From positions 930,001 through 994,000 of the forward strand of contig NZ_JACHBY010000001.1 of assembly GCF_014200495.1 (NCBI RefSeq): a DNA stretch of 64,000 bases, written 5' to 3'. This DNA comes from Mucilaginibacter geliditolerans (GTDB lineage: Bacteria > Bacteroidota > Bacteroidia > Sphingobacteriales > Sphingobacteriaceae). The position numbers were made by a program, and so were the translations under genes. Within the stretch, counting starts at the first letter, position 1. Every line of letters begins with the position of its first letter. A model generated the notes under the pieces. It worked only from the letters and a program-made list of their open reading frames with translations, had not been told where the DNA came from and made no database searches. Of this stretch, positions 7,225-43,701 are shown in pieces.

Positions 7225-8568
7225 ATGACGCTTTCTCCTCTTTCAGCCATTTCCCCTATCGACGGGCGTTACCACAATGCAACTGCTGAACTGGCTGAGT
7301 ATTTTTCGGAATACGCACTAATAAAATACCGGGTATTTGTTGAAATTGAATATTTTATCGCCCTGTGCGAACATCCGTTACCACAATTACAAAACTTTGA
7401 TAAAAATCTATCAGAAAAGTTACGCGACATCTACCGAAATTTTTCAGAAGCTGATGCGCTGGACATCAAACAGATAGAAAAAACCACAAATCATGATGTT
7501 AAAGCTGTAGAATACTTTATTAAAAAAGAGTTCGATAAGCTAAATATTGCTGCTTATAAAGAGTTTATCCACTTCGGCTTAACATCACAGGATATAAACA
7601 ATACTGCTATCCCTTATTCATTTAAATTAGCTTTAAATGATGTTTATTACCCGGCATTAGCCGAATTAATCGACCTGCTAAAAAAATACGCCGGCGACTG
7701 GGATAAAATACCGATGCTGGCACATACGCACGGTCAGCCTGCATCACCTACCCGTTTGGGCAAAGAGATACAAGTATTTATTGAGCGCCTGGAAAACCAG
7801 CTTGCATTATTGAAACAAGTACCTTACTCTGCAAAATTTGGCGGCGCTACAGGTAACTACAATGCGCATAATATTGCTTATGGTAATATCGACTGGAAAA
7901 CATTCGGTAATCATTTTGTGAATGACATTTTGAGCCTGAGCCGCTCACAATTTACCACACAGATTGAGCATTATGATAATTTCGCCGCTCAATGCGATGC
8001 CTTAAAACGCATAAACAATATTTTGATCGACCTTGACAGGGATATGTGGGCTTATATATCGATGAACTACTTTAAGCAAAAAATAAAAGCTGGCGAAGTA
8101 GGTTCATCGGCCATGCCGCATAAAGTAAACCCAATTGATTTTGAGAACTCAGAAGGTAACTTAGGTATCGCTAACGCGTTGTTTGAGCATTTAGCTGCCA
8201 AACTACCTGTATCAAGGCTACAACGCGACCTGACCGATTCAACTGTTTTGCGTAATATAGGCGTACCGGTTGGGCATACACTTATCGCTATGAAATCAAC
8301 TATTAAGGGCTTAAATAAGTTATTACTAAACGAATCGGTAATTGCGGGCGCATTGGAGGCTAACTGGGCAGTAGTTGCGGAAGCTATACAAACCATTTTA
8401 CGTCGCGAAGCTTATCCTAACCCCTACGAAGCATTAAAAGAGCTTACACGTACTAATACCCACATAAACGCTGGTACTATAGCGGAGTTTGTTAATACTT
8501 TGGATGTTAGCGATGAGATTAAAAAAGAAATTAAACAAATAACACCGTCTAATTATACAGGGATATAA
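7225..8568 (+). CDS. purB: Adenylosuccinate lyase
   Basis: The 447-residue enzyme carries the fumarase/aspartase superfamily signature SSAMPHKVNPIDFEN at about residue 293-307, with the catalytic serine in its flexible loop, and the HGQPASPTRLGKE histidine motif near residue 172. It cleaves SAICAR to AICAR and adenylosuccinate to AMP, two steps of purine synthesis, in the cytoplasm. The start MTLSPLSAISPIDGRY is typical for the family. It is divergent from the efflux regulator and appears to be a single-gene unit, followed at once by a heptad inverted repeat that probably ends transcription. Confidence 0.97.
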   Translation: MTLSPLSAISPIDGRYHNATAELAEYFSEYALIKYRVFVEIEYFIALCEHPLPQLQNFDKNLSEKLRDIYRNFSEADALDIKQIEKTTNHDVKAVEYFIKKEFDKLNIAAYKEFIHFGLTSQDINNTAIPYSFKLALNDVYYPALAELIDLLKKYAGDWDKIPMLAHTHGQPASPTRLGKEIQVFIERLENQLALLKQVPYSAKFGGATGNYNAHNIAYGNIDWKTFGNHFVNDILSLSRSQFTTQIEHYDNFAAQCDALKRINNILIDLDRDMWAYISMNYFKQKIKAGEVGSSAMPHKVNPIDFENSEGNLGIANALFEHLAAKLPVSRLQRDLTDSTVLRNIGVPVGHTLIAMKSTIKGLNKLLLNESVIAGALEANWAVVAEAIQTILRREAYPNPYEALKELTRTNTHINAGTIAEFVNTLDVSDEIKKEIKQITPSNYTGI

Positions 8569-8570
8569 TT

Positions 8571-8645
8571 CAAAAGTTAAAAGTCAAAATTCAAAACAAT
8601 CGTTGAAAAAGCATTTTTGACTTTTTAATTTTTAATTTTGACTTA
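8571..8645. repeat. Heptad-repeat inverted arms after purB
   Basis: The left arm is four consecutive 7-mers of the form cAAAAgt (8571-8598). The right arm is four 7-mers TTTTTGA, CTTTTTA, ATTTTTA, ATTTTGA (8614-8641). The arms are roughly complementary, giving a long imperfect hairpin directly after the purB stop. It may act as a terminator. Confidence 0.75.
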
Positions 8646-18044: not shown

Positions 18045-18052
18045 ATTTATAT

Positions 18053-18138
18053 CGGATTTCGGATATTCGATTTCGGATTTAATTTTTTCAAATCAGAGAA
18101 TTAAAGCAAATCCGAAATCGAACATCTGAAATCCAACA
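18053..18138. repeat. Heptad-repeat inverted arms after yajQ
   Basis: Left arm CGGATTT, CGGATAT, TCGATTT, CGGATTT in exact 7-bp steps (18053-18080). Right arm is seven steps from 18090 to 18138, including TCCGAAA, TCGAACA, TCTGAAA and TCCAACA. The arms are complementary (CGGATTT against AAATCCG). The right arm's wording is very close to the single arm at 37092-37126. Confidence 0.8.
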
Positions 18139-18140
18139 TA

Positions 18141-18172
18141 AAAAAAGACCGCCCCTCACGGAACGGCCTTTC
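18141..18172 (-). terminator. Strand-specific terminator of hsp20
   Basis: On the minus strand GGCCGTTCC pairs with GGGGCGGTC around a GTGA loop, using three G-U wobble pairs, and is followed by seven U residues. On the plus strand the same positions are mismatched, so it should act only for the hsp20 transcript. Confidence 0.8.
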
Positions 18173-19281: not shown

Positions 19282-19293
19282 TCTAACCCCGTT

Positions 19294-19385
19294 GTCATTT
19301 CGAACGAGGTACGAGGAGAAATCTTCTTCGATCTGCATAGCCGCTATTCACATGCAGAAGATCTCTCACTATCGTTCGAGATGAC
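19294..19385. repeat. REP-like intergenic palindrome (92 bp)
   Basis: GTCATTTCGAACGA at the left end pairs with TCGTTCGAGATGAC at the right end (one mismatch), and the inner segments CTTCTTCGATCTGCAT and ATGCAGAAG also pair. The wording (gtcatttcgaacgaggtacgaggagaaatct) resembles a dispersed repeat I recall from many Bacteroidota genomes. It lies between two convergent genes. Confidence 0.7.
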
Positions 19386-19400
19386 AGGTGTAAAATAAAA

Positions 19401-29441: not shown

Positions 29442-29476
29442 ATCTAACATCTAAAAATCTTACATCTAAATAAAAA
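29442..29476. repeat. Single-arm heptad repeat upstream of accD
   Basis: ATCTAAC, ATCTAAA, AATCTTA, CATCTAA, ATAAAAA in exact 7-base steps. It has only one arm, unlike most of the other heptad loci, and lies in the accD promoter region. Confidence 0.6.
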
Positions 29477-34788: not shown

Positions 34789-34870
34789 AGTGAATGAGTG
34801 ATTTAGTGAATGAGTGATTATTTGATTATGCGCTGTACTCGCTCATCCACTAAATCCTTCATTCACTAAA
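34789..34870. repeat. Heptad/octad inverted arms between glmM and the cysteine desulfurase gene
   Basis: Left arm AGTGAAT GAGTGAT is repeated after one extra base (34789-34816). Right arm CTCGCTC ATCCACT AAATCCT TCATTCA CTAAAT (34838-34870) is its reverse complement with few changes. It would form a long hairpin between two genes on the minus strand. Confidence 0.75.
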
Positions 34871-36948: not shown

Positions 36949-37078
36949 GTGTGCCACGGAACATATGAAACAGGTGGAACACCTGGCACACCCGCCCGTT
37001 CAAGCGTCCACGCTTAAATTAATAACCGTAACCGAGGACGCTTACTAAAAAACAATGTTCAAGCGTGGACGCTTGAAC
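36949..37078. repeat. Cluster of nested inverted repeats after the PAP2 gene
   Basis: Three elements are visible. GTGTGCCA (36949-36956) pairs with TGGCACAC (36984-36991). CAGGTGGAACACCTG (36971-36985) is a separate hairpin that overlaps its right arm, so the two cannot both form. AAGCGTCCACGCTT (37002-37015) and GTTCAAGCGTGGACGCTTGAAC (37057-37078, given as positions of a 22-bp palindrome) are near-copies in opposite directions. Confidence 0.6.
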
Positions 37079-37091
37079 AGGCGCTTCAAAC

Positions 37092-37126
37092 AAATCCAAA
37101 ATCGAACGTCCGAAATCCGAAATCAT
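37092..37126. repeat. Single-arm heptad repeat overlapping the marR stop
   Basis: AATCCAA, AATCGAA, CGTCCGA, AATCCGA, AATCATC in exact 7-base steps. The MarR-family gene's stop codon (37123-37125) lies inside the last unit. Wording is nearly the same as the right arm at 18111-18138. Confidence 0.7.
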
Positions 37127-37572
37127 CCCCGCATCTTATCCAGCAGATCGCTTAATTTACCGGCTTCTTCTTCAGTAAGGTTATCTTTCAAAAAATCTTT
37201 TGATTTAAACTCCACATCAATCTTTGCCAATAATTCCAGTCCCTCGTCGCTGATACGGATATCAACTGCTCTGCGGTCTTTTTTATTGGTACAGCGCGAA
37301 ACCAGGCCTTTTTGGAACAGACGGTCAACTATGCGCGATGCGTCTGACATTTTATCAATCATCCGCTCTTTCAGCAAATTTACAGTTGCCGGGCTTGGAT
37401 ACTGCCCCCTCAAAATCCTTAAAATATTAAACTGCTGCTGGGTAATATTATATTTTTCAAACTCCCCACGAATGAGGTTAGCAAGCCAGCCCGATGTATA
37501 AGAAATATTGATAACAGCTTTCTGATAGTTGTCCTCAAATTTGGTGCTTTGTATTTCTTCGTCTATGCGCAT
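37123..37572 (-). CDS. MarR family transcriptional regulator
   Basis: The 149-residue protein has a winged helix-turn-helix of the MarR type (QFNILRILRGQYPSPATVNLLKERM, SDASRIVDRLFQKGLV and the basic wing RCTNKKDRRAVDIRISDEG). MarR dimers usually repress genes for efflux or redox defence. It is 32 bases downstream of the DUF5522 gene on the same strand. No obvious regulated gene is adjacent. Confidence 0.92.
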   Translation of the reverse strand: MRIDEEIQSTKFEDNYQKAVINISYTSGWLANLIRGEFEKYNITQQQFNILRILRGQYPSPATVNLLKERMIDKMSDASRIVDRLFQKGLVSRCTNKKDRRAVDIRISDEGLELLAKIDVEFKSKDFLKDNLTEEEAGKLSDLLDKMRG

Positions 37573-38830: not shown

Positions 38831-38869
38831 CGCACCAGCCAATGCATCTAAATCTGTATTATTAACCGA

Positions 38870-38912
38870 ATAACACCAATGAACTATTGAACCAATGAGC
38901 CAATGAACAATT
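38870..38912. repeat. Octad repeat overlapping the end of coaE
   Basis: CCAATGAA, CTATTGAA, CCAATGAG, CCAATGAA and CAATTCAT in 8-base steps run across the last ten codons of coaE, so its C-terminal residues are encoded by the repeat. It is an octad relative of the heptad arrays. Confidence 0.6.
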
Positions 38913-39480
38913 CATGCAAAGCCAAAACCTGCGGTATCACCAGCTCGCTGTTATCATTCTTTATAGCGTAATCAGCCAATTCAAGCTTCTTCTCTTCAGT
39001 GAATTGCTTAGCATCCCTGCTCCTGACTTCAGCTTCACTTAATCCATCACGTTGCATTACCCGCTGTATACGCATCTCTAATGGAGCAGTAACCATTATT
39101 GTTTTATCGCACATTTTATAGGAATCACTTTCAAATAACAGTGCCGCCTCCTTTAAAACATAGGGCACATTTTTAAACTTTGGCACCCAATTATCAAATG
39201 CCCTGAAAACTGCAGGATGTACTATCGCATTCAGCTTTGCCAGTTCTGTTTCGCTTTTAAATACAATATTTGATATGCGCTTGCGGTTTAATGAGCCATC
39301 CTCAAAATATGATTCCTGTCCGAAGGTTTGTTTAATGGCACCGATGAGTATTTCATCATTAACCATAACCTTTTTAGCTTCATCATCAGCATAAAAAACA
39401 GGTATGCCCAATACTTCAAATATTTTGCTTATCGTGGTTTTACCACTACCAATATTGCCGGTTATACCTATTTTAAGCAT
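38884..39480 (-). CDS. coaE: Dephospho-CoA kinase
   Basis: The 198-residue kinase has Walker A GNIGSGKTTISK at residue 8-19, the FYADDEAKKVM substrate loop and the AALLFESDSYKMCDKTI motif. It phosphorylates dephospho-CoA, the last step of coenzyme A synthesis. Its start overlaps the YbbR gene's stop by one base, placing it at the end of the nusB-DUF1573-yajC-ybbR-coaE run. The final residues (GSLVQ) come from an octad repeat. Confidence 0.96.
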   Translation of the reverse strand: MLKIGITGNIGSGKTTISKIFEVLGIPVFYADDEAKKVMVNDEILIGAIKQTFGQESYFEDGSLNRKRISNIVFKSETELAKLNAIVHPAVFRAFDNWVPKFKNVPYVLKEAALLFESDSYKMCDKTIMVTAPLEMRIQRVMQRDGLSEAEVRSRDAKQFTEEKKLELADYAIKNDNSELVIPQVLALHELFIGSLVQ

Positions 39481-40424
39481 TATTTTCTGATGATGAAATC
39501 AATATTTGGTGGATCGATGCGCACTATTTTACAAAATGGCGGATACCTGATCAGCTTTACGGGCAAAATAGTGTAGCCCTGTAATCTCCATAGGTTAAGG
39601 TCTGATTCTGCTTCAAAAAAGTCCTCATTTATTTCCGCGTACTTTTTTAACGATGTCACGAAGGTAACCTTAACTTTCTGCGGAAATATCTTTACGTTGT
39701 AATAATCAAAGTTATTGATGATCTTGACAGGTATTTGCAGGGTTTTCTCTGTAAATTCATCAACAGGCACCACTACATCAACCGCTTTAGGGTACATACT
39801 CATGTTCCCCTCGCTAACAGCCTGCATGTTTAATTTGGTTCTGATGGTTTCGTTTACATCTTCAGCTATTAATGAATCAGTATCCCATTGCGTTATTTTG
39901 CTGATGCGGTTAGCCGGCCCCGTTAGGGTAACATAAGCTGGTTTTACTATAGGATTGTTTGATTGCGCAAACTGCTGCTGATATTTTAAAGCCGCCACCA
40001 AATGTACAGGCACTCTTTTTACCATACGGTACGAAAAATCAAAATACAGTGTATCGGGGTTAATGGCTATAATTTCATGATTGGCATCCTTATCATTTAT
40101 TTGCTTTAGCTGTGAACTAAGCACTACAAAATTCCCATTATCCAACGACCGCAGATCTGCTGCTATTGGTGTGTTTTCATCATTCATTTTTGAAAACAGC
40201 ATCTGCCAGCCGGTACCCTTTACGGTAACCTCTACCGTATCCGACTGCAATGAATGGAATGCTCTTTTTTGAGGCGAGTTTTTATAGGTTAATACACGCT
40301 TTACGTGATAATCATAAGGTTTTGACAGCGTTGTAAACAACCACGCGAGTGACGCCAATACCAGGCATGTAAAAAATGCTGATAATCGCCTGCGTTCCCC
40401 TGCGGATAGTTTTACTATAGCCAT
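39480..40424 (-). CDS. YbbR/CdaR-like domain protein
   Basis: The 314-residue protein has one N-terminal membrane helix (FFTCLVLASLAWLFTTLSKP) and then extracytoplasmic beta-rich repeats of the YbbR kind (VHLVAALKYQQQFAQ, PAYVTLTGPANRISKI, IQTPVKII-like LQIPVKIINNFDYYNVKIFP). In Firmicutes such proteins regulate the diadenylate cyclase CdaA; here no cyclase is adjacent, and the role is unknown. Location between yajC and coaE is the common order in Bacteroidota. Confidence 0.85.
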   Translation of the reverse strand: MAIVKLSAGERRRLSAFFTCLVLASLAWLFTTLSKPYDYHVKRVLTYKNSPQKRAFHSLQSDTVEVTVKGTGWQMLFSKMNDENTPIAADLRSLDNGNFVVLSSQLKQINDKDANHEIIAINPDTLYFDFSYRMVKRVPVHLVAALKYQQQFAQSNNPIVKPAYVTLTGPANRISKITQWDTDSLIAEDVNETIRTKLNMQAVSEGNMSMYPKAVDVVVPVDEFTEKTLQIPVKIINNFDYYNVKIFPQKVKVTFVTSLKKYAEINEDFFEAESDLNLWRLQGYTILPVKLIRYPPFCKIVRIDPPNIDFIIRK

Positions 40425-40430
40425 TTTTGA

Positions 40431-40557
40431 AGTTAAAAGTTAAAAACCGCATAAGCTAAAAGCAAAAAGCTGAAAGATAAAAGCTCAGGAATTATACCCG
40501 CACCTTTCGCCTTCAGCTTTTTCATTGCTTTCTGCTTTAAGCCTTTCGCTTTACGCT
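40431..40557. repeat. Eight-unit heptad inverted arms between ybbR and yajC
   Basis: Left arm of eight 7-mers from 40431 to 40486 (AGTTAAA, AGTTAAA, AACCGCA, TAAGCTA, AAAGCAA, AAAGCTG, AAAGATA, AAAGCTC). Right arm of eight 7-mers from 40502 to 40557 (including TTCTGCT, TTAAGCC, TTTCGCT, TTACGCT). The arms are complementary. The yajC stop and its last two codons fall inside the right arm. This is the clearest of the arrays. Confidence 0.85.
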
Positions 40558-40880
40558 TTCGGCGGTGTATTCAATGCTTTTGATGCATCTAACGATACCG
40601 ATGATTTTTCATAACGGGTTTTGTGACCGCTTTCGTGTTCAACCAAAAAAGTTGTATCGCCAACTTCTGCAATTCTTCCGTGTGCACCAGATGTTAAAAC
40701 AACCTTATCGCCTTTTTTAAGCTCATTAACATAGTTTTTCTGATCTTTTTGTTTCTTAACCTGCGGGCGGATCATAAAAAAGTAAAATACAACAACGATA
40801 AGTACCAGGGGTACAAAATTACCGTACGTTCCAAATATACTGCTTGCGCCTGCCGCTTGTAATAAAATAGTTGCTATCAT
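40551..40880 (-). CDS. yajC: Preprotein translocase subunit YajC
   Basis: The 109-residue protein has one membrane helix (FVPLVLIVVVFYFFMIRPQ) followed by the conserved KKQKDQKNYVNELKKGDKVVLTSG and GRIAEVGDTTFLVEH. YajC associates with SecDF in the Sec translocon. Its C-terminus, KALNTPPKA, is partly encoded by the heptad array. It lies 13 bases after the DUF1573 gene. Confidence 0.93.
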   Translation of the reverse strand: MIATILLQAAGASSIFGTYGNFVPLVLIVVVFYFFMIRPQVKKQKDQKNYVNELKKGDKVVLTSGAHGRIAEVGDTTFLVEHESGHKTRYEKSSVSLDASKALNTPPKA

Positions 40881-43498: not shown

Positions 43499-43508
43499 AT
43501 GATTATGA

Positions 43509-43695
43509 GTCCGAAAGTCGGGAAAGTCCGGAAGACCGGAAGTTAAATGCAAAGAATATCTGTCACAGGCTTTCAATTTTTACTTAATTTCAAAGCCTTT
43601 TACAAACTTTCGGACTTCGCAACTTCCGGTATTTCCTACTTATTACCTATTTTTGAGCTTTCGGACTTTCGGTCTTACCGGACTTTCGGACTTCC
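43509..43695. repeat. Heptad arms in the divergent region before the ABC exporter gene
   Basis: Left arm AGTCCGA, AAGTCGG, GAAAGTC, CGGAAGA, CCGGAAG (43509-43543). Right arm is a longer T/C-rich run from about 43600 to 43695 with repeated CTTTCGG and ACTTCCG units. The two arms are complementary in wording. The right arm ends only seven bases before the ABC exporter start codon, so its transcript leader would be built from the array. Confidence 0.75.
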
Positions 43696-43701
43696 ATAAA
43701 T

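Follow-up and report, generated by a model that had tools for sequence, protein, structure and literature searches.

As shown in Table 1, the spacers of the window carry arrays of degenerate 7- or 8-base units, laid out as inverted pairs of arms or as solitary arms. The window is the whole stretch of 64,000 nucleotides that was analysed, C1:930001-994000 within the 6.5 Mb genome of a Mucilaginibacter (G000). Genes were called by script as the longest open reading frames (ORFs), with no annotation used. A search of the window against Rfam at the gathering score returned one tRNA (RF00005, 61877-61948) and no other match.

Table 1. Array elements of the window and the genes flanking the element downstream of yajC (window coordinates).
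Position	Feature	Type or family	Context	Tests and comparisons
8566..8645	Inverted heptad element	AAAGTCA/AAATTCA	After adenylosuccinate lyase gene	Different array there in G026
18046..18142	Inverted heptad element	ATTTCGG/CCGAAAT	After DUF520 gene	Both arms among dispersed arm matches (C1:948049, C1:948112)
29442..29476	Weak solitary array	ATCTAAC/ATCTAAA
34780..34876	Inverted octad (period 8) element	TTAGTGAATGAGTGA		Shuffle and hairpin tests
37092..37126	Solitary arm	ATTTCGG/CCGAAAT	Over stop codon of minus-strand ORF 37123-37572	Dispersed match C1:967096
38863..38908	Octad array	CCAATGAA		Absent from the list of the sequence-only reading
39480-40424	YbbR-like gene		Minus strand
40424..40560	Inverted heptad element	AAAGCTG/AAAGGCG	Between yajC and YbbR-like gene; left arm 40431-40486, right arm 40502-40559, overlapping yajC end	Lag, hairpin and fold tests
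40551-40880	yajC		Minus strand
43503..43699	Inverted octad element	AGTCCGAA	Long spacer; extra right-type arm beside ABC transporter start codon
48150..48236	ychF-leader inverted element	Left arm AATCAAGA, right arm TACTTGATACTA	Between TATCTTTG and start codon
49358..49424	Inverted heptad element	AGAGTCA/AATCAAG	After ychF

Ten stretches named in an earlier, sequence-only reading of this DNA were each tested against 300 dinucleotide shuffles and compared at lags 5-10. The best lag was 7 in eight of them and 8 in two. The 7-base period that had been claimed as common to all therefore held for the eight, but the stretches at 34789 and 43509 have period 8, with matches of 0.53 and 0.44 at lag 8 against 0.31 and 0.32 at lag 7, respectively. 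At lag 7 the match was 0.63 at 40431-40486 and 0.59 at 40502-40557, and none of the 300 shuffles reached the observed value at 40431, 40502, 8571, 18053, 48151, 49360 and 37092. Of the two arms reported as single, the one at 37092 stood, but the one at 29442 was weak: 19 of 300 shuffles equalled its lag-7 match. An indel-tolerant score was less clear at 40502 (17/300), 18053 (9) and 29442 (24). The arrays had also been called exact, but they are imperfect: the left arm at 40431 holds a 9-base unit, and most units differ. The inverted layout was borne out: at six sites 0-2 of 300 shuffles equalled the hairpin score (loops of up to 120 bases), and 18 did so for 40444-40552. When the RNA fold of 40424-40560 was compared with shuffles, z was -3.5 on the minus strand and -1.6 on the plus strand; the minus strand, which folds better, is the strand of its operon.

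The lag test proposed in the sequence-only reading failed in the window alone and was passed by larger samples. In the intergenic DNA of the window, lag 7 did not exceed its neighbours, with a match of 0.2936 at lag 7, 0.2944 at lag 6 and 0.2963 at lag 8. In 464 kb sampled from G000's own contig, including 49.1 kb of called intergenic DNA, z was 5.8, 6.2, 4.1 and 5.3 at lags 7, 8, 14 and 21, respectively, though lags 4 (z 8.0, the highest), 3 (5.0) and 24 (4.0) were likewise raised; lags 5, 10, 11 and 13 were flat. Indel-tolerant self-alignment of the same 464 kb at a score of at least 15 found 30 arrays at lags 6-9 and 23 at lags 14-17, against 1.7 and 1.3 after shuffling, and 6 against 0.7 at lags 10-13, 8 against 0.7 at lags 22-25 and 2 against 1.0 at lags 3-5; shuffle controls were few in places (3 to 60), and some scored array segments in G000, in the G000/G026 spacers and in the word census are plain AT-rich DNA.

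The loci of the genus clade were drawn from relatives of ychF, taken as the best 80 of 556 confirmed stretches. In 67 of these loci, with 843 spacers and 135 kb of intergenic DNA (L202, L204, L205 and L211 were excluded from ingroup and outgroup alike), the largest excess was at lag 7 (z 15), followed by lag 8 (z 13) and lag 3, with lags 2, 4 and 6 raised too. A score of at least 13 was reached by 135 arrays at lags 6-9 against 13 in shuffled DNA, and the counts in the other bands were 15/5, 20/7 and 36/7. At least one array was found in 56 of the 67 loci. Nine outgroup loci, with only 9.7 kb of spacers, gave weak lag signals. In being more than ordinary spacer DNA, the arrays bear out the earlier reading. 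The site 3' of yajC carried an array with a score of at least 13 in 24 of 30 genus loci, by eye mostly of the AAAGGCG, AAAGGTG or AAAGCTG type. Scores were lower in L117, L119, L121, L124, L136 and L137, and a different hairpin was present in L117, L121 and L137. The collinear relative G026 keeps the family at this site with 86% identity.

Of the array segments counted, 182 in all, 112 matched best at lag 7, 46 at lag 8, 21 at lag 9 and 3 at lag 6. These segments gave 101 distinct most-frequent words, which makes for a wide vocabulary, and the commonest words recur across several genomes. The sequence-only reading had assigned each place its own 7-mer; as a rule this is wrong, since whole arms recur at many loci. 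The arm ATTTCGGATTTCGGATRTTCGATTTCGG, with 28 nt in four units of fixed order, the third of them odd, had 42 matches in G000 at up to 3 mismatches and was present in 55 of the 61 genus genomes (G000 included), with a maximum of 112, and the reversed control had no match in any of the 61. A third arm was matched in 35 of the 61 genomes, with 0 for its control. Near species can have very different numbers of copies of one family: the GTTCATA-family arm was found 19 times in G000, 23 times in G026 and 0 times in G029, whose YchF is 99% identical. Because multi-unit arms recur with their unit order conserved, the arms are copies of dispersed families, and many arrays are copies of genome-scattered repeats, not structures made separately at each place. 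G026 contains four exact 29-base arm copies, each beside an unrelated loop, and the copy in L223 faces a left array of another type, so that the copied unit may be the arm and not the whole hairpin.

Mixed pairs were seen in L222 and L223, where a GTTCATA-family right arm lies opposite a GTCATTN-type left array, and the ychF hairpin of the window is mixed too. A TTAG...CTAA terminus was common to several families by eye only, and part of this terminus is the word itself.

Placement relative to the called ORFs was scored for families A, H and F, with 30, 30 and 29 loci given and 25, 26 and 28 scored, respectively, after duplicates and loci with no hit or no flank were dropped. Where a partner arm was found within 220 bases, the polarity was the same (w-w') at 43 of 43 loci (A 14, H 20, F 9), and at none of these paired loci did the partner lie on the opposite side. 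Among arms lying no more than 15 bases from an ORF edge, 42 pointed outward and 2 inward, counts in which paired arms and orthologous G000/G026 loci are not independent, so that a p-value computed from them comes out too small. Flush arms numbered 17, 15 and 12 in A, H and F, against about 5, 9 and 7 under uniform placement, an argument weakened by the fact that the called edge may be made by the arm: where an arm begins with TGA, this can serve as the stop codon at which the ORF ends. In family A, three arms overlap the edge by one base. The simplest reason for this layout is an element with a fixed inside and outside that fills short spacers.

Family F showed no preference for gene orientation, with the downstream gene on the plus strand at 14 of 28 loci and on the minus strand at 14 of 28 (one more locus had no hit). 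Across four spacer classes, array density was 0.82-1.00 per kb in G000 (43 arrays) and 0.72-1.01 per kb in G026 (33 arrays). Arrays are equally dense in divergent, convergent and co-directional spacers, showing no preference for gene 3' ends and occurring between divergent genes, so the earlier suggestion that they act as intrinsic terminators was rejected.

Turnover was followed between G000 and G026 over 400 kb, with a mean nucleotide identity of 92% over 52 aligned blocks. Orthologues in G026 were found for 159 of 244 spacers, 35 of which scored at least 13 for an array in either genome. On reading these 35, most retain their family with internal changes and some are AT-rich noise. At least 5 of the 35 were swapped wholesale with intact flanks, at window coordinates -133555, -73365, -7414, 8569 and 48025, and the replacement hairpin in G026 at -7414 is not built of heptads. 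Aligning orthologous spacers, which had been proposed as a check for gain and loss of arrays, thus revealed replacement and one expansion (described below), but most spacers keep their family. Other dispersed hairpins (GTCATTGCGAGG, GTCATTTCGAAC and others) showed similar turnover between the two genomes.

In the ychF leader, a typed element was present in the stretch from TATCTTTG to the start codon in 67 of 70 ingroup rows; 60 of these were heptad or octad arrays (some one-sided, types Q and I) and 7 were the CCCTCCC hairpin. Word patterns gave the types, which were then corrected manually for L032, L147, L168, L047, L181, L196, L023, L173 and L213. A tree of ychF coding DNA was built by a quick method from 82 rows, comprising 79 of the 80 loci of the main set (L139 was left out) and 3 of 30 further loci. 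On this tree the leader states need at least 38 changes, at least 33 of them among typed rows, against an average of 55.4 with shuffled labels, counts that are approximate because they come from a one-gene tree of modest support with types partly assigned by hand. Since fewer changes are needed than with shuffled labels, the leader types are partly inherited. The sister rows L158/L201 and L145/L146 have different leader types. When leaders were compared with a reference, the same strand was better in 6/6 of type P, 5/5 of M, 16/18 of F, 13/14 of D and 5/7 of H, counts inflated by shared leader flanks, with some M margins tiny. The outgroup loci L215-L218 have ychF leaders of 18-30 bases with no array. 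In L213, outside the genus, an octad hairpin built on a word of its own (TTAGCTGA) occupies the ychF leader site; the leader of the sister row L215 is 21 bases long and lacks this hairpin.

Multi-unit arm dispersal, a single pair polarity, turnover at fixed sites and the lack of a spacer-orientation preference were observed here. We consider the arrays, at odds of about two to one, to be dispersed non-autonomous inverted-repeat elements with a heptad substructure, and arm copying as the route of dispersal is the best-supported statement. An arm consists of about 28-36 bases (by reading, in the families examined closely) in 7- or 8-base units of fixed order, and occurs either alone or paired with an inverted arm, the loop between the two varying from copy to copy. 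Copies are found genome-wide, persist across the genus and lie mostly in spacers, often flush with ORF edges and, at ychF, between the promoter and the start codon. They change by mutation, and occasionally another family takes their place or slippage lengthens them. Their spread is predicted to be that of passive mobile DNA, REP- or MITE-like, and the 7/8 period may date from ancient tandem duplication and have been preserved by whole-arm copying. Arguing against a mobile element, the conservation of arm motifs across the genus might reflect selection. A dedicated exchange of cassettes acting on hairpins is a tentative and rather doubtful proposal, suggested by the swapping of families of the 7/8 design at fixed sites, by the single arm polarity and by the mostly shared strand at ychF. 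If true, it would fit machinery guided by heptad-structured single-stranded hairpins and by a fixed target, not by a particular sequence.

One suggestion of the sequence-only reading was that the hairpins are built locally. In such a process, replication slippage in steps of 7-8 bases would build the array and template switching would make the inverted arm. One clear case of slippage expansion was found, an octad array of TTCATTGG at C1:845668-845813 (window -84332..-84187; L017:15668-15813), with many near-perfect copies in G000 and few in G026 and self-alignment scores of 103 and 16, respectively. Array spacers also had more indels per kb than the others (31.6 against 22.0), and indels of 7-8 bases had a somewhat larger share, with 13 of 186 in the 35 orthologous array spacers and 17 of 405 in other spacers. 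Surveys cited in PMC4692102 and PMC4679880 connect the abundance of heptamer repeats with how long a stretch of DNA the polymerase holds. However, apart from the TTCATTGG expansion, ongoing unit-sized slippage was not clearly seen in the counts of 7-8-base indels, and one multi-unit arm recurs at dozens of loci. Local de novo building was rejected as the main cause because such arms recur at many loci.

The pairing of arms in the ychF leaders bears on the same point. With untrimmed arm halves, own and cross complementarity were 17.2/18.9 in type H, 14.9/15.4 in D, 15.7/16.2 in F, 17.9/18.1 in M, 7.8/7.9 in Q, 14.7/14.4 in P and 8.7/8.3 in I, and 7.7/6.5 in untyped leaders (73/2000 permutations). 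Arm co-evolution had appeared positive when the arms were trimmed by their own hairpin, but was gone with untrimmed halves. At ychF, an arm thus pairs equally well with its own partner and with same-family partners from other species. Given the indel sizes and this non-specific pairing, local building by slippage or strand return is unlikely as the main process. Together, the whole-arm copies and the one expansion indicate that slippage may have made the founding arms, and it may be the ancient origin of the period.

Selected RNA structures, such as leader hairpins or stabilisers of mRNA ends whose sequence may vary as long as the fold is kept, find support in the arrays or CCCTCCC hairpins retained in the ychF leaders and in the arrays retained at the yajC loci counted above. 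RNA folding was stronger than in shuffles, with z below -2, in 54 of 73 ychF leaders (uncorrected types), but such folding is a consequence of the arms being inverted and is not in itself evidence of selection. Weak folding was found in leaders of types I and Q and in untyped leaders, with median z of -1.6, -1.0 and -0.7, respectively. The non-specific arm pairing, the lack of a 3'-end preference and the finding that leaders hold only 3 of 16 G000 array/start-side relations with a promoter motif also argue against this explanation, and if the sequence were free, the retention of family arms across the genus would go unexplained. We therefore hold selection on RNA structure to be improbable for the arrays in general; at the ychF leader, the hairpin may have a selected role.

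Movement of the arrays by the genome's Y1 transposases, as in RAYT/REP systems, is very improbable, although the heptad arrays near both sides of one Y1 gene may point to a link. Of the genome's seven Y1_Tnp genes, the one in L076 (1237-1794) has a heptad array in the adjacent spacer (1080-1236, TTGAATC type, score 12) and another about 320 bases away on the other side (2076-2113, TTTTGAA type, score 14), and the one in L075 has an array two genes away. The spacers adjoining the other six scored no more than 10, and at the flanks of several Y1 genes stand palindromes of another kind, which have no period. Such palindromes of their own flank the RAYT-like Y1 genes in L073, L074, L075, L076 and L078, for example ACTTACGAAGTTTT, CAGTTGCAAACTG and GGCGCAAGTCTTGTGC. 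Both heptad arrays in L076 are preceded by AACCATGCCCT.

Cyanobacteria have short tandem heptamers, and in the tRNA-Leu intron the P6b hairpin is built of heptads; both are degenerate-heptad hairpins whose word differs by class. Inverted, dispersed, intergenic heptamer arrays have already been published for Xanthomonas, where the GGGAATC arrays are degenerate heptamers, mostly intergenic and dispersed, often in convergent inverted pairs (70 cases in Xcc and 75 in Xac), and 83% lie at the same place in a relative with varying length and sequence (Rehm et al. 2015, PMC4692102). The Mucilaginibacter arrays are likewise intergenic, degenerate, many-copy heptads with convergent inverted pairs, but Xanthomonas has one G-rich, quadruplex-capable word, whereas Mucilaginibacter has many words, periods of 7 and 8 and replacement of families at one site. 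By reading, none of the 45 commonest words contains GGG on either strand except AAAGCCC (2 segments). TAACTGA heptamers of Beggiatoaceae, cyanobacteria and five Bacteroidetes, spread among lineages by an unknown route, are also intergenic heptad direct repeats, but they have one invariant word, with 169 direct sets and one indirect repeat in Maribeggiatoa, mostly just upstream of start codons (PMC4679880).

Like the arrays, REP sequences are short inverted repeats that fall into many families and are dispersed through intergenic DNA. However, a REP is a palindrome of 20-40 bp tagged with GTAG/CGTC and lies mainly downstream of genes, whereas a Mucilaginibacter arm is heptad-structured, pairs across a free loop and shows no such preference (PMC3733652). 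No GTAG/CGTC tag was noticed when a set of arms was read by eye. MITE-like traits are present, namely inverted terminal repeats, many copies and an intergenic location, but, in contrast to a standard MITE, the copies of the Mucilaginibacter elements do not share loops. BrickBuilt, a MITE of Porphyromonas gingivalis, is likewise an intergenic Bacteroidota element with internal tandem repeats and inverted ends, but it has a 23-base unit, 19 copies in one strain, and leader and tail subunits (PMC4596501).

Bacterial 7-base repeats have been noted as over-represented, with slippage proposed as the cause, in work cited in PMC4692102 and PMC4679880, which cite a 2007 survey of simple sequence repeats, and an earlier idea reported there is that the period reflects the length of DNA held by the polymerase, which would favour slippage. 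In prokaryotes, simple repeats are generally suppressed and inverted repeats over-represented according to passages of PMC4060949, which contained no heptamer term. Among the top-ranked matches in the open-licence literature, we found no account of such arrays in Mucilaginibacter or Sphingobacteriaceae, nor of many coexisting words, period 8 beside period 7, an arm consensus across a genus or exchange of families at a fixed site. Because Mucilaginibacter has many families and genomes, and because families were exchanged dozens of times at one site, the genus allows arrays to be followed directly as they are gained, lost and copied. Its seemingly unique regulatory spacers often hold such repeats, which bears on the annotation of promoters, terminators and small RNAs.

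Several copies of the palindromes TTCAAGCGTCCACGCTTGAA lie at 36993-37083 of the window, beside the solitary arm at 37092, and are arranged otherwise in G026. Larger dispersed hairpins starting with GTCATTTCGAACGA, GTCATTGCGAGG or GTCATGCTGAAC, which have the prefix GTCAT in common, swap at common spacer sites (window 19293-19386 and places in L002-L021 and L052-L071).
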